Source: an uncultured Pseudomonadota bacterium (GTDB lineage Bacteria > Pseudomonadota > Gammaproteobacteria > Methylococcales > Methylomonadaceae). From it: a DNA stretch of 64,000 nucleotides. Location: assembly GCA_903834465.1 (NCBI GenBank), contig CAILJB010000076.1, positions 1-64,000 of the forward strand. Direction: 5' to 3'. The notes under the pieces are model-generated. The model was not told where the DNA came from and made no database searches. It saw only the letters and a list, made by a program, of their open reading frames with translations. Positions 17,902 to 26,528 of this stretch are shown here, one piece after another. Within the stretch, counting starts at the first letter, position 1, and each line of letters begins with the position of its first letter. The position numbers and the translations under genes are program-made.

Positions 17902-17916
17902 TGTTATATTGTAACA
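17902..17916. promoter_or_regulatory. Putative Zur box upstream of zur
   Basis: TGTTATA-T-TGTAACA fits the gammaproteobacterial Zur consensus core (GTTATANYATAAC) with one mismatch, and extends to an 8-bp inverted repeat at 17899-17919. It lies 38 bases before the zur start, pointing to autoregulation by zinc. Confidence 0.75.
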
Positions 17917-17953: not shown

Positions 17954-18412
17954 ATGACTCATTCTCACAATCACACAGCGTGCGTTCAAGTCGCACTCAC
18001 GAATGCCGCACAACTCTGTGCAGAACGTGGCGTGCAACTCACACCGATACGGCAACAAGTTTTAGAACTCATCTGGGCAAATCATCACGCCGTCAAAGCC
18101 TACGATTTACTCGAACGTATCAAACCGCTTCAAAGTGCCGCTAAACCAGCGACGATTTATCGCGCCTTAGATTTTTTGATGGAACAAGGTTTTATTCATC
18201 GTGTCGAAAGTTTGAATGCGTTCATCGGTTGCACAGATTTACGCACCGTTCATGAGCAATTACTTTTGATATGTAAGCAATGCCAGGATGTTGAAGAACG
18301 TCAGGCGAATGCGGTCATGCAAAGTTTAGCGGATGAATTAAAAGAAGCAGGATTCACCGCGCATCATAAGGCTATTGAAATTCACGGAATTTGTCAGAAT
18401 TGCCAGCAATGA
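17954..18412 (+). CDS. zur: Zinc uptake regulator, Fur family
   Basis: The 152-residue protein has a Fur-type winged helix (LTPIRQQVLELIWANHHAVKAYDLL; PATIYRALDFLMEQGFIHRV) and two CxxC pairs (CKQC, CQNC) that form the structural zinc site, plus a His-rich N-terminus (THSHNH). Zur proteins bind Zn(II) and repress zinc-uptake genes. Assignment to Zur rather than Fur rests on the neighbourhood: a Zur-type palindrome in its own promoter, a better one before the next operon, and downstream ZIP, COG0523 and ZnuD-like genes. In E. coli numbering the C-terminal pair is the usual structural motif. Confidence 0.92.
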   Translation: MTHSHNHTACVQVALTNAAQLCAERGVQLTPIRQQVLELIWANHHAVKAYDLLERIKPLQSAAKPATIYRALDFLMEQGFIHRVESLNAFIGCTDLRTVHEQLLLICKQCQDVEERQANAVMQSLADELKEAGFTAHHKAIEIHGICQNCQQ

Positions 18413-18433: not shown

Positions 18434-18448
18434 TGTTATAATATAACA
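18434..18448. promoter_or_regulatory. Putative Zur box upstream of the zinc-starvation operon
   Basis: TGTTATA-A-TATAACA is a perfect 7-1-7 inverted repeat and a full match to the GTTATANYATAAC Zur core. It lies 30 bases upstream of the first COG0523 GTPase start, where it would overlap the promoter and repress the operon when zinc is sufficient. Confidence 0.85.
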
Positions 18449-18478
18449 TATCAATAAAATTCCTTTCCCTTCAAAACC

Positions 18479-19630
18479 ATGACCACAAAACAACTTCCTA
18501 TCACCGTTCTTTCTGGATTTTTAGGCGCAGGAAAAACCACGCTACTCAATAACATCCTCGCTAATCGAGACGGTTTAAAAATCGCCGTTATCGTCAATGA
18601 CATGAGCGAAATCAATATCGATGCCGCGCTGGTCAAAAACGAAATGTCATTAAATCGCGCAGAAGAAAAATTAGTTGAAATGAGCAACGACTGTATTTGC
18701 TGCACATTGCGCGAAGATTTATTGATTGAAATTACCCAATTAGCAAAAGAAGGGCGTTTTGATTATTTGTTAATCGAATCAACAGGCATTGCAGAACCGT
18801 TGCCTGTGGCAGAAACGTTCACGTTTCGAGATGAAAATGACGTGAGTTTGTCAGATTTAGCGCGTTTAGATACGTTGGTAACAGTGGTTGATGCGGTGAA
18901 TTTCATGCGCGATTATTTAGAATCGCAATCACTCAAAGACATTCACGCCGAAGTCAGCGACGAAGATGAGCGCAATATTTCAGATTTACTGGTTGAACAA
19001 ATTGAATTTAGTAACGTGATTTTGATTTCTAAAATCGATTTGATTAGCAGTGATGAACGTGAAAATCTCACCGCGATTTTGAAAAATTTAAATCCTGACG
19101 CTGAAATTATTCCGATGGTAATGGGCAGTGTGCCGATTGCCAAAATTTTAAATACGCACAAATTCGATTTTGAAAAAGCCGAACAAGCCGCAGGTTGGTT
19201 GCAAGAATTACGCGGTACGCACAAACCCGAAACCGAAGAATACGGAATTTCGAGTTTTGTTTTTAGCGCAAATCGCCCTTTTTACACCACCCGTTTTTAC
19301 GATTATTTGCATCGTGACGAATGGGATAACGGCACATTGTTACGTTCAAAAGGCTTTTTTTGGTTAGCGTCACGTCCTGAATGGGTGGGTTCGTGGTCAC
19401 AAGCAGGCGGCACAATGCAATATGGTTGTGCGGGACGTTGGAAATCCGTCACCGATTGTCGGCAAGAACTCGTTTTTATTGGACAAAACATCAATCAAGA
19501 AAAAGCGATTGCTGAATTAAACGCCTGTTTATTAACCGATGAAGAATTTGCGGCAGGTGAAAACGTGTGGCGCGATTATCGAGATGAATTTCCTATTTGG
19601 TTTTTAGATGAAGAAGGTGAAACACCATGA
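18479..19630 (+). CDS. COG0523 GTPase, ZigA/YciC/ZagA type zinc metallochaperone
   Basis: The 383-residue G3E GTPase has Walker [10 protein letters not shown], the metal-binding CxCC motif ([12 protein letters not shown]), the ESTGIAEP switch, an SKIDL guanine-specificity motif, and the C-terminal domain typical of ZigA/YciC ([31 protein letters not shown]). ZigA and ZagA hydrolyse GTP to pass zinc to client enzymes when zinc is short. It follows a perfect Zur box, and its stop overlaps the start of a 54-residue peptide gene. The client protein here is unknown. Confidence 0.93.
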
Positions 19631-19791
19631 TGTCAGAAAAATTATTAAACCGTATTTTTCTGGTCGTTTTTTGCGTCACGCTCAGTTACGTTTTTGTTAA
19701 TTGGTTGCCCGATTCAGTTGCAAATTTTGTTTATGGTTCGACAAACAAAAAAGCTCTTGTTCATAACGTAACCTTTGAGTTTTCGCAATGA
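19627..19791 (+). CDS. 54-residue single-span membrane peptide in the zinc operon
   Basis: A 55-codon ORF begins at ATG 19627 (or the next ATG, 19630), overlapping the COG0523 stop, and ends with a TGA that overlaps the ZIP gene ATG (ATGA). Both overlaps argue that it is translated. The product has one hydrophobic helix ([19 protein letters not shown], about residues 6-24) and a short polar tail; it has one Cys and one His, so no obvious zinc site. The family is not recognised. It could be a small partner of the ZIP permease. Confidence 0.65.
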
Positions 19792-20573
19792 ATTTACCTT
19801 CTGATTTACCTTCTAGCATTATTGGTGCAAGCCTTTTAGTCAGTTTTAGTTCATTAAGCGGCTTATTTGTGTTGTGGATTAAGCCCGAAAAACTGCAAAA
19901 AATCGTGCCATATTTAGTTGCGTTGGCAGTTGGTGTACTTTTAGGCGATGCGTTCATTCACTTAATTCCCGATGCGGTGGCGCGTCAAGGTTCAGTATCA
20001 ACCGTTTGTTTAATGACGTTATTGGGTGTTTTTGTTTTCTTTGTGTTGGAAAAAATTGTACGTTGGCGACACGACCACACTGTCGATTTTTCTAATCAAG
20101 ATACGAATACCATTCAGCCAATGGCAAAAATGAATTTGGTTGGTGATGCGATTCACAATTTTGTCGATGGTATTTTGATTACGGGTAGTTTTTTAACGGA
20201 TCCAATTCTTGGTGTGACAACGGCTTTTGCGATTATCGCGCATGAAATTCCACAAAAAATTGGTGATGTGGGTGCGTTAATTTATGGTGGTTTTTCACCG
20301 AAAAAAGCCGTTTTGTATAATTTCTATTGCTCATTAACGGTTGTGGTTGGCGCGATATTTACGCTATTTCTCAGTCAAATCGCAGAATCGTCACTTGTGT
20401 TTTTATTGCCCATTGCGGCGGGTGGTTTTATTTACATTGCCACCACCGACATGATGCCTGCGTTACATGAACATTCTTCACTTCGCAATTTATTTGGACA
20501 AACAGCCATTCTCGCTTCGGGCATTGCGTTTATGCAATCGATTGTGGTTTTTGAACAATTCCTCCTTCCTTAA
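19788..20573 (+). CDS. ZIP family zinc transporter
   Basis: The 261-residue inner-membrane protein has about eight transmembrane helices and the ZIP metal-site motifs in TM4 and TM5: HNFVDG at about residue 123 and HEIPQK at about residue 152. A short His-containing loop (RWRHDHTVDF) lies before TM4, as is common in ZIPs. It should import Zn(II) into the cytoplasm. It lies in the Zur-box operon, translationally coupled to the small peptide before it and 13 bases from the DUF1826 gene after it. Confidence 0.93.
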   Translation: MNLPSDLPSSIIGASLLVSFSSLSGLFVLWIKPEKLQKIVPYLVALAVGVLLGDAFIHLIPDAVARQGSVSTVCLMTLLGVFVFFVLEKIVRWRHDHTVDFSNQDTNTIQPMAKMNLVGDAIHNFVDGILITGSFLTDPILGVTTAFAIIAHEIPQKIGDVGALIYGGFSPKKAVLYNFYCSLTVVVGAIFTLFLSQIAESSLVFLLPIAAGGFIYIATTDMMPALHEHSSLRNLFGQTAILASGIAFMQSIVVFEQFLLP

Positions 20574-20586
20574 CAACTTAAAAATT

Positions 20587-21267
20587 ATGAGCGCGTTACC
20601 CCACCAATTCAAATTTGAACCACAACCCACTTTTTCAACCGCGTGCGTTTCTTATCAACTGACCGATTTAACCGAAATTTATAAAGGTGACGTGAATTTG
20701 TGCGTGGTTAATCGAACGGTTGATACAGAAATTCACCACTTTGTTCACGAACTTTTTGCCGCGCAACGTCACGTTAGCGTGATTGAAAATTTTAATGTTG
20801 CGGGTTTTGATTTTGAAAATTTATTGCCACAAGCCAAACAGTTACGCGGTTACTCAGAATTTCACAAAGATATTGAACATTTAGTGACTGTTTTTTGTGA
20901 ATTATTTGACTTACAAACCGTTGGCTTGCGTTTGGGAATGTTTGATAAAGCGATGTGTCCAAAATTTCATGTTGACCATGTGCCATGCCGTTTGGTTTGT
21001 ACTTATGGTGGAATTGGCACGGAATGGATTGAAGACCGTTACATCAATCGCACGAAATTGGGCGTAGGTTCTGGTGGTTTAACCGATGATAAATCAGGAC
21101 TCATTCAAGCAGATTTAGATGTTATCAACACCACGCCAGCTTATGCGATTGGTTTATTAAAAGGTTCAAAGTGGGAAGGTAGCGAACAAAACGGCGCAGT
21201 ACATCGTTCACCAAAAGTCACTGAAAATGCGCCTTATCGACTTTTATTAACATTGGATTTTGCGTAA
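20587..21267 (+). CDS. DUF1826 family protein
   Basis: The 226-residue soluble protein resembles DUF1826, a family of unknown function often found beside COG0523 GTPases in zinc-responsive loci. Visible features are FHVDHVPCRLVCTYGG (His, Asp, His and Cys that could bind a metal), GTEWIEDRYINR, and the C-terminal AVHRSPKVTENAPYRLLLTLDF. The HxD...H pattern is reminiscent of an iron/2-oxoglutarate or cupin-like metal site, but this is speculative. ATG 20587 was chosen over an earlier frame opening because that would overlap the ZIP gene. The next GTPase starts 6 bases on. Confidence 0.8.
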   Translation: MSALPHQFKFEPQPTFSTACVSYQLTDLTEIYKGDVNLCVVNRTVDTEIHHFVHELFAAQRHVSVIENFNVAGFDFENLLPQAKQLRGYSEFHKDIEHLVTVFCELFDLQTVGLRLGMFDKAMCPKFHVDHVPCRLVCTYGGIGTEWIEDRYINRTKLGVGSGGLTDDKSGLIQADLDVINTTPAYAIGLLKGSKWEGSEQNGAVHRSPKVTENAPYRLLLTLDFA

Positions 21268-21273
21268 AAATTT

Positions 21274-22266
21274 ATGACAAATGAAAAAAACACTCGCGTT
21301 CCTGTCACCATTCTGACGGGCTTTTTAGGTGCAGGAAAAACGACGCTTTTAAATCGCATTTTGTCTGAAGAACATGGACAACGCATTGCCGTCATTGAAA
21401 ACGAATTTGGCGAAACAGGCATTGACAATGAATTGCTTATTCAAGGTGAAGAACAAATTATCGAAATGAATAACGGCTGTATTTGCTGCACGGTGCGTGG
21501 GGATTTAATCAGGATTTTGAGCGAATTAGCGCGAAAACGAGAACAAGGCAGTTTGCATTTTGACCGTGTGATTATTGAAACCACAGGGCTTGCAGACCCC
21601 GCGCCTGTTGCACAAACTTTTTTTGTTGAACCTGAAATTGCTTTCCACTATTTAGTTGATGCCATTTTGACCGTTGTTGATGCAAAACACGCTTTAAAAC
21701 AACTTGATTCAACGCACGAAGCAGAAGACCAAATCGGCTTTGCTGATCGTTTGCTGATTTCAAAAGTGGATTTAGTCACACCTGAAGAATTGGATTTATT
21801 AACGGTGCGTTTGAAACAAATTAACCTCAATGCGCCCATCAAACACGTTCATTTTGGCAAAACAGCCATCAATGAACTTTTAGATATTCGCAGTTTTGAT
21901 TTAAACGCCATTTTAGAAATTGAACCCAATTTTTTAAACGATGTTTCGCATCATCACGACAAAGGTGTTAGCTCATTTGCTTACCATTCAGACATTGCTT
22001 TTGATGCCGCAAAAATTATTTCTTTTATGGAGCTTACGGTTTCTATTTATGGCAACGATTTATTGCGCTACAAAGGAATTTTAGATATTCAAGGCTGCGA
22101 TAAAAAAGTCATTTATCAAGGTGTTCACATGATGTTTGATGAAACACTCGGTATTGCGTGGAAAGAAGGCGAAAAAAGAGCTTCGACATTAGTCTTTATC
22201 GGTCGTAATTTGCCGCCCAAACAAGATTTAAAAGAAGCCCTCGATAGTTGCAGGATTGCATTGTGA
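21274..22266 (+). CDS. Second COG0523 (CobW/YjiA-like) GTPase
   Basis: The 330-residue protein is a G3E GTPase of the CobW/YjiA type: Walker [10 protein letters not shown], the CxCC motif (GCICCTVRGDLI), the ETTGLADPAP switch, SKVDL, and a C-terminal CobW domain starting near SSFAYHSD. A short His cluster (SHHHDKG) between the domains could bind metal. Its TGA overlaps the GTG start of the FhcA-like gene (GTGA), so the two are translationally coupled. That makes the amidohydrolase its likely client, by analogy with other COG0523 chaperones; this is inference. Confidence 0.93.
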   Translation: MTNEKNTRVPVTILTGFLGAGKTTLLNRILSEEHGQRIAVIENEFGETGIDNELLIQGEEQIIEMNNGCICCTVRGDLIRILSELARKREQGSLHFDRVIIETTGLADPAPVAQTFFVEPEIAFHYLVDAILTVVDAKHALKQLDSTHEAEDQIGFADRLLISKVDLVTPEELDLLTVRLKQINLNAPIKHVHFGKTAINELLDIRSFDLNAILEIEPNFLNDVSHHHDKGVSSFAYHSDIAFDAAKIISFMELTVSIYGNDLLRYKGILDIQGCDKKVIYQGVHMMFDETLGIAWKEGEKRASTLVFIGRNLPPKQDLKEALDSCRIAL

Positions 22267-23939
22267 AAACTCGTTTAAAAGGCGGACAAATTTTCGACCC
22301 TGCACAAAATCTAAACGGCGTTGTGCAAGATTTGTGGTTTCAAGATGGTGTGATTATTCCAACGCCGCACAAAAATGAAATACCTGATGTGGATTACGAT
22401 ATTTCTGGCAAAGTTGTGATGGCGGGGGCAATTGATATTCACAGCCACATTGCAGGTGGAAACGTGAATACCGCGCGTTTATTACTGCCTGAACAACATC
22501 GAAATTTCATGGCGCGAAAACTCAATCATCCATTTGGCATTTCTCGTTGGTCAACCACAGAAATCGGTTATCGTTACGCGCAAATGGGTTATACAACCGT
22601 TGTTGAACCTGCCATTTTGCCTGCGAATGCGTTAGATGCTCACCTGCAAATGGCAGATATTCCGATTATCGACACCGCAGGTTTAGCGATTTTGGGTAAT
22701 GATGATTTTTTGTTGCGCTTACTTCGTGCAAAAGCAAGTCAAAATCAAATCAATGATTATGTTGCATGGACGTTGTATTCCACACGCTGTTTGGGTTTGA
22801 AAGTGATTAACGCAGGTGGCGCGAATGCGTTTAAAAACAACGTTCGCCATTTTGATTTAGACGATATTGTTCCCGATTACGGCGTGAGTTCGCGCCATAT
22901 TTTGCAAACTCTGCAACGCGCCGCGTGTGACATTCAGTTGCCGCATCCTGTTCATGTTCACTGTAATAATTTAGGCATTCCAAATAACGTAGACACCGCG
23001 ATTGCGACAATGGAAGCCGCGCAAGGTTTGCCAATGCACTTAGCGCATATTCAATTTTATGGTTACGGCAATCAAGGTGAACGCGGTTTTTCAAGTGAAA
23101 GCGCGAAATTGATTGATGCGTTTAACAAACATCCCAATATCACAATGGATGTTGGACAAGTTTTGTTTGGGCAAACGGTCACAATTTCGGGCGATGTGAT
23201 TGCTCAATTCAGCCGCCGTGATGATGCCAGTCCTAAAAAATGGGTGGTTTGGGATGGGGAATGTCAAGGAAGTGGCGGCGTTGTGCCGTATCGCTATCAA
23301 GCAAAAAGTTTTGTGAACAGTTTGCAATGGATAATTGGTTTAGAAATTTTCTTATTAGCGCAAGACCCTTGGCGATTGTTTTTCACAACAGACCATCCGA
23401 ATGGCGCACCTTTTACCAGTTATCCGCATTTGATTCGCTTGCTGATGGATTATGAATTTCGTTTGGAATGTCTGTCGCAATTAAATCCCCAATCCGTTGA
23501 AATGAGTTTGTTAAAAGAGCTGAAAAAAGAATTTTCACTTTATGACATTGCGATTATGACGCGCACCGCCGCCGCGCAAATGTTGGGCTTGAAAGATAGA
23601 GGGCATCTAAACGTTGGCGCAATGGCAGATATTGCTGTTTATCGTCCACAAGCTGATAAAGAAGCGATGTTTAATCATGCCGATTTCGTTTTTAAAAATG
23701 GCGAATTAGTGATTAAAAACGGTGAAGTGCAAGCACGAAAAAACGGGATGACTCAAATTGTGCAACCGCATTTTGAATCACAAATTAAACGTGATGTGCA
23801 AACGTATTACGACCAATTTTATAATTTGAAATTGCATAATTTTCAGGTAAAAGACGTAAGTTTTAGTCAAACCGACACAGAGCGATTTGTACTTCATTCC
23901 TGCGGTAAACCTTATGAATCAAGTTATGCAGCAAATTAA
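22263..23939 (+). CDS. fhcA: Formylmethanofuran dehydrogenase subunit A / FhcA-type amidohydrolase
   Basis: The 558-residue protein matches subunit A of formylmethanofuran dehydrogenase (FwdA/FmdA) and of the methylotroph formyltransferase/hydrolase complex (FhcA), which handles formyl-methanofuran or methylofuran in formaldehyde oxidation. The amidohydrolase metal site is retained: His60 and His62 in DIHSHIAGG, Lys180 in CLGLKVINAGG, His in HPVHVHCNN (228-233), and Asp377 in TTDHPNGAPF. Typical FhcA is about 550 residues. The start is GTG 22263, overlapping the preceding GTPase stop. None of fhcB, fhcC or fhcD is nearby, and the gene sits inside a Zur-type operon, so it is probably a second copy used in zinc shortage; that is inference. 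Confidence 0.87.
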   Translation: MKTRLKGGQIFDPAQNLNGVVQDLWFQDGVIIPTPHKNEIPDVDYDISGKVVMAGAIDIHSHIAGGNVNTARLLLPEQHRNFMARKLNHPFGISRWSTTEIGYRYAQMGYTTVVEPAILPANALDAHLQMADIPIIDTAGLAILGNDDFLLRLLRAKASQNQINDYVAWTLYSTRCLGLKVINAGGANAFKNNVRHFDLDDIVPDYGVSSRHILQTLQRAACDIQLPHPVHVHCNNLGIPNNVDTAIATMEAAQGLPMHLAHIQFYGYGNQGERGFSSESAKLIDAFNKHPNITMDVGQVLFGQTVTISGDVIAQFSRRDDASPKKWVVWDGECQGSGGVVPYRYQAKSFVNSLQWIIGLEIFLLAQDPWRLFFTTDHPNGAPFTSYPHLIRLLMDYEFRLECLSQLNPQSVEMSLLKELKKEFSLYDIAIMTRTAAAQMLGLKDRGHLNVGAMADIAVYRPQADKEAMFNHADFVFKNGELVIKNGEVQARKNGMTQIVQPHFESQIKRDVQTYYDQFYNLKLHNFQVKDVSFSQTDTERFVLHSCGKPYESSYAAN

Positions 23940-24398
23940 AACCCTTGAAAAAATCCCCGTTATCGTAATCAGTGGCTTTTTAGGAAGCGGCAAAACGACA
24001 CTGCTCAATTCATTGTTAAACCATTTGCCAAAAACGGCAGTGATTATCAACGAATTCGGTACAACGCCGATTGATCAAGATGTGTTACGAAAACATAACT
24101 CGCCCAAAGTCACACTCGTCGGCGGGTGTTTATGTTGTCAAACCCGTGATGCGTTACGGTTTTGACCGATTTGATGACGCTTTATCATGAGAAATTAGTG
24201 CGCTTAAAAGGCATTATTTACACGCTTGAAAATACTAAACCGTTGATTATTCAAGGCGCGAATGGCGTTTTATATCCAACCAGTTTTTTACCCGCACGCG
24301 AATCGGATGATGAAATAGGACGTTTAGTTTTTATTACTGATGGTGACGTGAGCGATTTAGCAGAAGCCTTTATGCAAAAACTGCGTCTTTCGGCGTGA
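23914..24398 (+). pseudogene. Decayed third COG0523 GTPase with internal deletion
   Basis: From ATG 23914 (or 23926) an intact N-terminus reads VIVISGFLGSGKTT and GGCLCCQTRDALR, then stops at 24165. The next frame carries only the CobW C-terminal domain (LTDLMTLYHEKLVRLKGIIY to RLVFITDGDV), ending at 24398. The 180 or so residues that should lie between, with the switch and guanine-specificity motifs, are missing and the frame is shifted, with the join near 24155-24175. It overlaps the 3' end of the fhcA-like gene by about 26 bases. Separate translation of the 78-residue C-terminal part cannot be excluded. Confidence 0.85.
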
Positions 24399-24434
24399 TT
24401 TCAACCAATATATTTTTATAGTTTAGGAAATTTT

Positions 24435-26528
24435 ATGTTTAAAAAAATTCACTTTTTACCCGCGTATTTTTTGGTTTTCGCCGCGCCACTTTATGCCGAA
24501 GATAGTGTGCAAAAGCTCGACGATATTATTATTACCGCACCTTTACAGGAAACAACCTCTGAATTTGCTGTACCCGTGACTGTCTTAGAAGATGATGAAC
24601 TGATGATGAAAATGGGGCATAGCATTGGCGAGACGTTGAAACAAGAGCAGGGAATTACCAGTCAATCATTTGGTCCTGGTGTTGGTACACCCGTTATTCG
24701 AGGTCAAAGTGGACCTAGAGTGCGCGTCTTATCCAGTGGTATTGGAAGTAATGATGTGTCGCAGTTAAGTCCTGACCATGCAACCAGTATTGAGCCTATC
24801 ATGGCAGAGCGCATCGAGGTATTGCGTGGACCCGCTACCTTACTTTATGGCAGTGGTGCAATGGGTGGTGTAGTTAATGTTATCGATAATCGCATTCCTA
24901 GTTTTATTCCTGATAAGCCGTTTGGCGGTGTTGTCGAGCAACGTTATGATTCGGCTTTCGATGAAACCAGCACAGCATTGAAAGCTGAAGGCGGAAAAGA
25001 CCATCTTGCTTATCATTTAGATGGTTTATTTCGTGACCGCAGTAATATGAGCATCGATGGGCAAGCTATTGATGCGCCCGCGGCACAATCTCTTGATTCC
25101 ACACTTAATGTCATTCAAAACAGTCATGGCATGATTCCAAATACTTATGCCCAAACTATCAATGGTTCGGCGGGCGTTTCATTAGTGGGTGACCCTGGAT
25201 TTGCAGGCGTTTCAATCAATCAGCTACATAACAATTATGGTATTGCCCCCGATGGTAGTGGCGGTTCAAATACTCGTATCGATATTCAACAAACTAAATA
25301 TGACTTCAAGAGCGAACTGAACAATCCTTTAAGTTTTGCCGAATTATTGAAGATGCGGATGGGTTATACCGATTACTATCACAAAGAATTAGATGGTGGT
25401 GAACCAGGAACAGCATTTAGCAACAAAACGTTTGAAGGTCGCATGGAACTTATCCATAAACCTATTGGATTATTTCGAGGGTTGGTTGGTTTTCAGGTAT
25501 TATCTAGCGACTTTTCTGCCTTTGATTTTACTGGCGCACAAACGATTGTTCCCAAATCCTTAATCAGTAGTTACGGCGTATTTGGTGTTGAATCATTTAA
25601 TTATGGTCCTGTTACTTATCAATTAGGTGGTCGAGTAGAAGAGAGTTCCATCGCGCCACAATCTGGCACAAATTATTCCTCACCAAATGGCTTGCCAATT
25701 AGTTCGTCTTATAATTATTTACCCGTTAGTGCTTCCGCTTCAGGGCTATGGAAACTTGATAAAAAAAATAGCCTCAATTTAGCTCTTACCCGTTCCCAAC
25801 GTGCGCCACAAGTTCAAGAATTGCTGTCTCATGGTTTTCACGATGCGACCCGCAGTTTTGAAGAAGGTAATCCCAACTTGCAAATGGAAACCTCTTACAA
25901 TCTGGATTTGGGCTATAAGTTCAAAGCTGATTGGGTGCGTGCTGAATTAGATTTATTTAATAATTGGGTAAATAATTACATCTATCAGCAACGTACAGGT
26001 CAATTTGTGTTGCAAAACCCAGACACGGGTGCAGCAGATGCGTGTTCGCTGAACACCGGTTGTACCGCCGTAGTTCAAAGTTATCAGGCTAACGCTATTT
26101 TCAGAGGCTACGAAAGTAAGCTAATTTTTCCAGTAATGGAGAATCACTACGGATTGGTCGATTTAACTTTATTTAGCGATTACACCCGTGGCACATTTGT
26201 TAATGGCGGCGATGTACCACGCATGCCACCGCTACGCTTTGGCTTCCAGTGGGATTATACCAAGCAACAATGGACAAGTAATCTACGGTTTACCCGCGCC
26301 CAAGCTCAAAACCATCCAGGTGCAGATGATACTTCTACGGCAGGTTATTATTTGTTGAGTCTCGGCAGCCAATATCAAATCAAAGATTTCCACGACGCAA
26401 AAATTATGTTGTTTGCTAAGGCAAATAACTTGCTTAACGAAAACATCCGAAATTCCGTTTCTTACTTACGCAATTTTTCGCCGGAGCCTGGACGCGGAGT
26501 GGAAGTTGGAATTCGGGTGAATTATTAG
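24435..26528 (+). CDS. znuD: TonB-dependent outer-membrane receptor, ZnuD-like
   Basis: The 697-residue protein has a signal peptide, a plug domain (IIITAPLQETTSEFAVPVTVLEDDEL; PVIRGQSGPRVRVL; RIEVLRGPATLLYGSGAMGGVVNVID) and a 22-strand barrel ending in a TonB-receptor-like ELGIRVNY-type strand (GVEVGIRVNY). The plug sequence is most like ZnuD, the zinc/heme receptor of Neisseria and relatives. The long His-rich loop of ZnuD is not obvious here. It lies 36 bases behind the decayed GTPase in the Zur-box operon and would bring zinc through the outer membrane. No separate Zur box was seen before it. Confidence 0.9.
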   Translation: MFKKIHFLPAYFLVFAAPLYAEDSVQKLDDIIITAPLQETTSEFAVPVTVLEDDELMMKMGHSIGETLKQEQGITSQSFGPGVGTPVIRGQSGPRVRVLSSGIGSNDVSQLSPDHATSIEPIMAERIEVLRGPATLLYGSGAMGGVVNVIDNRIPSFIPDKPFGGVVEQRYDSAFDETSTALKAEGGKDHLAYHLDGLFRDRSNMSIDGQAIDAPAAQSLDSTLNVIQNSHGMIPNTYAQTINGSAGVSLVGDPGFAGVSINQLHNNYGIAPDGSGGSNTRIDIQQTKYDFKSELNNPLSFAELLKMRMGYTDYYHKELDGGEPGTAFSNKTFEGRMELIHKPIGLFRGLVGFQVLSSDFSAFDFTGAQTIVPKSLISSYGVFGVESFNYGPVTYQLGGRVEESSIAPQSGTNYSSPNGLPISSSYNYLPVSASASGLWKLDKKNSLNLALTRSQRAPQVQELLSHGFHDATRSFEEGNPNLQMETSYNLDLGYKFKADWVRAELDLFNNWVNNYIYQQRTGQFVLQNPDTGAADACSLNTGCTAVVQSYQANAIFRGYESKLIFPVMENHYGLVDLTLFSDYTRGTFVNGGDVPRMPPLRFGFQWDYTKQQWTSNLRFTRAQAQNHPGADDTSTAGYYLLSLGSQYQIKDFHDAKIMLFAKANNLLNENIRNSVSYLRNFSPEPGRGVEVGIRVNY

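Follow-up and report, generated by a model that had tools for sequence, protein, structure and literature searches.

Our data indicate that a methanotroph carries a second subunit A of formylmethanofuran dehydrogenase / Fhc inside a putative zinc-shortage operon. The window, which here means the whole stretch of 64,000 nucleotides that was analysed, belongs to contig CAILJB010000076.1 of an uncultured bacterium of the Methylomonadaceae, and its positions 18434-26528 hold a Zur-like box followed by genes for COG0523 GTPases, metal import proteins and an FhcA. The window type of this subunit is named A2 or FhcA2 here, and the type that is linked to fhcB in these methanotrophs is named A1 or FhcA1. 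We consider it rather probable, judging from gene content, conservation and phylogeny, that A2 is a replacement subunit of the Fhc complex for times of zinc shortage, maybe helped by a COG0523 chaperone.

The window's fhcA is accompanied by another one elsewhere in the same genome. The family TIGR03121 matches twice, with 770 bits on contig C78 and with 658 bits in the window, and fhcA1 on C78 overlaps fhcB (TIGR03129 368 bits, cut-off 328). An earlier sequence-only reading had held that its idea of a backup FhcA would fail if this were the single fhcA of the genome; a second, higher-scoring fhcA stands beside fhcB on the other contig. The genome-wide copy count covers fhcC and fhcD, which are present in one copy each, together on C64, while fhcB is known from C78 beside fhcA1. 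The fhc genes of this genome are thus split into fhcB-fhcA1 (C78:6463-9395) and fhcD-fhcC (C64:81389-83067). G616 and G025, where A2 is present and no FhcA1 is listed, are possible cases of a natural replacement of FhcA1; fhcD-fhcC lies there in regions without nearby fhcB or fhcA1, but so it does in the window's genome. The order fhcB-A-D-C of A1 occurs in seven regions (L188, L190-L195) and in L228. A second, very divergent fhcB-A-D-C set was noticed in two genomes (L188 6466-11134 and L189 11720-16412, flipped coordinates); its FhcA is ~43-44% and its FhcC ~30% identical to the usual ones, and G033 has this set next to its usual operon.

FhcA2 shares 50% identity with the resident FhcA1 and falls into a different clade, which rules out a recent duplicate of FhcA1. 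The tree was a quick maximum-likelihood one with 116 rows (112 different) under LG+G4, with support from the SH-like approximate likelihood-ratio test (SH-aLRT), and two broken A2 rows were dropped. A2 and three stand-alone copies form one clade of 54 rows (SH-aLRT 99), which lies inside a 69-row group (100) together with PDB 6s6y, genomes of other families of the same phylum and two rows from alphaproteobacterial metagenome-assembled genomes (MAGs); 37 A1 rows form a separate group (98). Long branches are flagged in this tree, L034 and L035 among them. The entry 6s6y, which we take to be the Fhc complex of Methylorubrum extorquens, matches A2 with 517 bits and FhcA1 with 421 bits. In the two alphaproteobacterial MAGs the A2-related FhcA is the only match over the cut-off and fhcD is present, so that the wider lineage apparently includes FhcA proteins able to act as the working A subunit. 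The fhcA of these MAGs adjoins folE, and neither fhcB nor fhcC nor fhcD is next to it (L034 3-2095, L035 5449-7802). The sequence-only reading had seen the window's FhcA as a spare copy; a separate fhcA does exist, and what that reading did not notice is that the spare belongs to another FhcA lineage instead of being a duplicate of the resident gene. Its source would be either transfer or ancient duplication.

The regulatory signal is the perfect 15 bp palindrome TGTTATAATATAACA at 18434-18448, 30 bases 5' of the start of the ZigA-like COG0523 GTPase gene (18479-19630, + strand). We searched the 2.82 Mb assembly for the pattern TGTTATANTATAACA with up to two mismatches and obtained three sites: this perfect one, a site with one mismatch at 17902-17916 and a site with two mismatches on contig C47. 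No other perfect match and no other one-mismatch site was found in the assembly. Palindromes of the TGTTATANTATAACA type are, we assume, the gammaproteobacterial Zur consensus. Zur boxes are presented as palindromes, e.g. 7-1-7, in the excerpted part of PMC6103462. We read the palindrome as a Zur box because relatives, too, carry it ahead of zur-, zigA- and znuD-like genes. The one-mismatch palindrome precedes a gene for a Zur-like Fur-family regulator (17954-18412, +; Pfam FUR E 4e-11), which makes autoregulation probable; relatives of this gene lie near A2 in several loci. With two genome sites at one mismatch or fewer, the Zur regulon may be small. A sigma-70 scan listed no promoter at the box; it gave 15 sites, where shuffled sequences gave 23.3 on average.

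Conservation of the box is what carries the assignment. Within 9 kb upstream of A2 a perfect box is present in 17 of the 37 loci whose ZigA start lies inside the contig, and the numbers rise to 29/37 at up to one mismatch and 36/37 at up to two, counts that are not independent since the loci are related to each other. L165, the single locus of these without a box at up to two mismatches, has less than 300 bases before its ZigA. By comparison, 62 control loci (A1 and other fhc regions, 472,965 bases, some mutually overlapping) gave no box at up to one mismatch and two at up to two. The count of 37 leaves out 16 of the 53 A2 loci, whose contigs do not include a ZigA start; four of them have a box at up to two mismatches (L123, L172, L185, L187) and 12 have none, nine of these 12 offering at most 3 kb of sequence before A2. 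Zur control of the operon, which is predicted from sequence, is strongly supported by this conservation.

The zinc context follows A2 through its relatives. A2 occurs in 29 of 122 family genomes (28 matches listed, with 66-100% identity, plus a broken copy in G096). At the level of the order, with 201 genomes, it was seen in at least 51 places in 48 genomes, again at 66-100% identity, among the matches listed, where fragments may be missed. When named genomes were scanned by pattern, 32 loci emerged, including Methylobacter, Methylomonas, Crenothrix, Methylicorpusculum, Methyloprofundus and two alphaproteobacterial MAGs; carriers not labelled as MAG are Methylomonas sp. LW13, M. koyamae, M. 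fluvii and Methylobacter psychrophilus. Of 56 regions fetched, 53 were A2 loci, and every one of these (53/53, family codes f1, f91 and f93) has at least one zinc-cluster gene near A2. Contig ends cut some loci (L116, L171), and L116, L171 and L172 show one zinc neighbour only.

One might argue that FhcA2 is no more than an additional ordinary FhcA that came into a Zur operon as a passenger and gives more Fhc capacity or merely persists, its zinc regulation being incidental. The repeated loss and decay of A2, its unchanged ligands, and the existence of copies outside the zinc cluster and of A2 loci without a box would agree with this. However, the zinc context is kept in all 53 loci over three family codes, and the ratio of non-synonymous to synonymous substitution (dN/dS) of A2 is 0.034-0.101 in eight genome pairs, next to 0.025-0.098 for A1 in the seven of these pairs with finite dS; judged by these ratios, purifying selection on A2 is shown. 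Additionally, Zur regulons repeatedly hold zinc-enzyme paralogues (PMC2770081, in part). We regard the passenger explanation as quite unlikely.

Copies outside the zinc context do occur: three of the 51 places (L164, L166, L167) are a separate small clade, and G607, G624 and G617 hold both the zinc-context A2 and the stand-alone kind. These stand-alone A2-like proteins are ~70% identical to the window's (L164 12717-14372, L166 12779-14425, L167 1037-2695 on the minus strand). The copy in L164 lies between bioA (after ilvD) and bioD, L166 has the same upstream genes as L164 by sequence start, and the copy in L167 is beside cysD. A further observation concerns G537 of family f93, whose FhcA2 (L174 12758-14416) is almost identical to that of G043 of family f1 (L120 12830-14488), with end branches of 0.002 and 0.003, which suggests recent transfer between the families; around the G537 gene only pieces of ZIP and DUF1826 were recognised, and no box was found.

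The FhcA2 gene probably starts with the GTG at 22263 and not with the TTG at 22248; this GTG overlaps the preceding stop as GTGA, and the gene extends over 22263-23939 (+). The protein passes TIGR03121 over nearly its whole length (658 bits, cut-off 392.75), and this bears on another explanation, according to which FhcA2 is Zur-controlled but works outside Fhc, hydrolysing formyl-amides or amides as a free enzyme and so helping in zinc scavenging or recycling formylated compounds. Many amidohydrolases act alone, fhcB, C or D stand beside A2 in none of the 53 loci, and three relatives are found by themselves at ilvD-bioA or cysD sites. Against these points are set the family score and the methanofuran-docking residues, of which two of three are kept: in a hand-counted alignment via 5t5i, A2 has Leu and Phe at the positions of Leu235 and Phe274 of M. 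wolfei FwdA, and Ala at that of Met323. All three are named as methanofuran contacts in the excerpt of PMC11656701. Furthermore, the related FhcA is the sole one found in the two fhcD-bearing alphaproteobacterial MAGs (where fhcB, C and D were likewise not seen next to it), and a search for fhcD in 54 genomes found it in 53; the remaining genome is 78% complete. A free hydrolase is, in our judgement, unlikely.

The metal site of FhcA2 shows no departure from the family. FhcA-type A subunits are members of a group of enzymes whose centre is [Zn-Zn] or [Ni-Ni], the archaeal relatives having [Zn-Zn], and the ligands of the binuclear site are four His, a Lys (carboxylysine) and an Asp (PMC11656701, in part). 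With this ligand set, and with columns assigned from motifs, all of these ligands are kept in 51 of 51 A2 rows, both His of HVH included. The loss of zinc ligands that is seen in some Zur-regulated paralogues is not found in FhcA2; with these residues intact, any benefit would come from how the metal is delivered, how tightly it is bound or which metal is chosen, and not from independence of zinc. At the position of the gate lysine of archaeal FwdA, Asn stands in 51/51 A2 rows and 13 of 14 Methylorubrum-type rows, whereas Lys stands in 44/44 A1-classed rows (three duplicate pairs among them).

A saving of zinc could also come about if FhcA1 had an extra structural metal site bound by Cys and FhcA2 lacked it, as in zinc-free ribosomal proteins. 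Cys is indeed found at three FhcA1 positions in 31 of 31 family sequences, and in every one of 51 FhcA2 rows Asn stands at one of these positions and Gly at a second. However, the three Cys do not occur together in 13 further A1-classed rows from outside the family (8, 9 and 13 of 13; these rows include three duplicate pairs, and the tree places L133, L134 and L195 on the opposite side with support 83), these Cys are naturally absent from Methylorubrum-type FhcA, and one of the Cys is kept in 37 of 51 FhcA2. We hold this explanation to be highly improbable.

The sequence-only reading had given FhcA2 its own GTPase chaperone. The gene directly upstream encodes the second COG0523 GTPase of the operon, YjiA/PRK11537-like (21274-22266, +; NF008578 282 bits, cut-off 361), and a YjiA-like GTPase is present in 27 of 29 genomes with A2 and in seven of 93 without it. 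The numbers for both, A2 only, GTPase only and neither are 27/2/7/86 in the 122 genomes (p 2e-18, kinship ignored) and 23/2/5/11 within ZigA-positive genomes (p 8e-5, kinship again ignored). The link is only correlative and has exceptions in both directions. Among the seven genomes with the GTPase and without A2, G041 and G052 have A2 remnants, the contig of G106 ends before the place of A2 in its genus, G108 and G120 (probably also G057) have no A2 between their COG0523 GTPase genes, and in G111 the genes are arranged differently. A strict coupling of chaperone and client was rejected on the exceptions in the presence and absence across the 122 genomes. The third COG0523 gene was rejected as a client-specific partner; it persists in the A2-less operons of G026, G060, G097 and G004. 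The YjiA-like GTPase directly upstream is our best candidate for a chaperone of FhcA2.

Several observations weigh against a replacement subunit. A2 is accessory, being lost or broken in some relatives: fhcA2 of G013 has an in-frame stop (L007 7992-9668), the copy of G096 is broken, remnants are seen in G041, G052 and G088, and A2 was not found in G040, G063, G081 and G109 of the same genus. Two A2 genomes are without the YjiA-like GTPase, and G108 and G120 keep the GTPase without A2. No box was found in L169 (4.3 kb), L170 (9.4 kb) and L174 (12.8 kb) despite upstream room, and no zinc gene, Zur-like box or fhcBCD was found around the copies of L164, L166 and L167. The relatedness of the A2 loci counts on this side as well. 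With the ligands unchanged, zinc independence is not visible in the FhcA2 sequence, and FhcA2 is, by the tree, of another lineage than the resident subunits that it would have to fit. Decaying or truncated fhcA2 genes in relatives lie, besides that of L007, at L214 1648-2246, L210 11977-12291 and L215 11333-11749, and the differing modes of decay suggest repeated loss of fhcA2. In G063, zur-, zigA- and znuD-like genes stand side by side without the middle module, and in G119 no FhcA was found at all.

Open reading frame lists and profile searches of the window confirmed all genes that the sequence-only reading had named, on the + strand and in the same order, and its description of the operon with a perfect box and short gaps holds in the sequence. 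The ZigA-like GTPase has the cobW and CobW_C domains and narrowly misses the ZigA equivalog (NF038288 591.4 bits, cut-off 600). It is followed by a 54-residue peptide (19627-19791, +), for which Pfam and NCBI profile searches found no family and which has a counterpart with 85% identity in L007/L101, a ZIP metal transporter (19788-20573, +; PF02535 E 7.7e-41) and a DUF1826 protein (20587-21267, +; PF08856 E 2e-57). Downstream of the second GTPase and FhcA2 lie the third COG0523 gene (23887-24398, +) and a ZnuD-like TonB-dependent receptor (24435-26528, +), the best match of which is NF038289 with 396.5 bits (cut-off 950). The third COG0523 gene had been called decayed, and rightly so: measured against an intact relative, roughly residues 108-272 are missing, and the frame changes at the junction. 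Intact copies occur in relatives such as L103. For the regulator, NF008646 (Zur) is the best of six families listed, with 140.2 bits below a cut-off of 167. We write Zur-, ZigA- and ZnuD-like because the scores are under the NCBI cut-offs. Intergenic gaps are 36 bases at most, with several 4-base overlaps, and the arrangement, as it recurs in relatives, is not due to chance.

The replacement of FhcA1 by FhcA2 could proceed as follows. When zinc falls in this Methylococcales methanotroph, Zur would leave the box at 18434-18448, and the repressed operon would then give the ZIP and ZnuD-like import proteins, the COG0523 metal chaperones and FhcA2. FhcA2 would take the place of FhcA1 on the single FhcC, the single FhcD and the FhcB that accompanies FhcA1, and it may be kept metallated via COG0523 delivery, tighter binding or tolerance of another metal. 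The formyltransferase/hydrolase complex Fhc, of which A is the catalytic subunit that FhcA2 would double, sets formate free from formyl-methylofuran. Fhc makes formate from formyl-tetrahydromethanopterin with methylofuran as carrier (PMC8141765, in part), and in Methylococcus capsulatus on methane, knock-down of the genes annotated as subunits A and B has strongly negative fitness scores of -2.70 and -3.08 (PMC13108547, in part). A zinc-starved methanotroph would risk losing an important enzyme, because the A-subunit family is metal-dependent and knock-down of A or B is costly. The transcription response, the assembly with FhcBCD, the link between chaperone and client and the metal advantage are what we infer here. 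The more specific account, in which a Methylorubrum-type subunit was captured into a gammaproteobacterial Zur regulon, is swapped into Fhc in zinc starvation and receives its metal, which may not be zinc, from a COG0523 GTPase dedicated to it, we offer tentatively, as possible though doubtful; it would amount to a metal-dependent exchange of subunits in the central formaldehyde pathway.

PyrC, one of the enzymes known to have Zur-regulated paralogues, is also of the amidohydrolase type. Nine zinc-enzyme families with paralogues in Zur regulons are described in the excerpted text of Haas et al. 2009 (PMC2770081), where the COG0523-linked ones are HisI, PyrC, gamma-carbonic anhydrase, HemB, CysRS, ThrRS, amidase, QueD and DksA-type proteins, and also FolE2. 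The operon of the window resembles these systems, as far as that text goes, in having a Zur box with COG0523 GTPases, a housekeeping paralogue elsewhere and an enzyme of a zinc family. It differs in that FhcA2 is a subunit of a one-carbon multi-protein complex and keeps all metal ligands, whereas three families in that part of the source are without zinc-binding residues. Ribosomal protein S4 with its zinc and zinc-free forms is similar in its zinc economy and in a second form with its own transfer history (PMC3087516, in part), but the spare S4, according to the same excerpt, lost the zinc-binding residues that FhcA2 has kept. FhcA2 is like the FhcA of 6s6y in its nearly full-length homology, its ligands, its Asn gate and the HVHCNN motif; FhcA1, although of the same enzyme family, differs in its clade, its Lys gate, its HGCN/GCG motifs and its place beside fhcB. 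In M. extorquens fhcABCD lie within one C1 (one-carbon) gene cluster (PMC8141765, in part), whereas A2 sits in a zinc operon, apart from the genes for B, C and D. Formylmethanofuran and methanofuran have no mention in the main text of PMC2770081, and a search of titles and abstract beginnings, with most subscription journals outside its scope, found no description of a Zur- or zinc-linked fhcA. Among Zur-regulated paralogues FhcA2 is unusual in being part of a complex and in differing in ancestry from the subunit whose place it would take.

If this is true, the route from formaldehyde to formate in methanotrophs joins the pathways with a spare for zinc shortage. To our knowledge, COG0523 GTPases have few known clients, and FhcA2 is a candidate, being an amidohydrolase with measurable metal content and activity. 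These findings suggest that the supply of zinc can become limiting for biological methane oxidation, and A2 probably lets methane oxidation go on when zinc is short.

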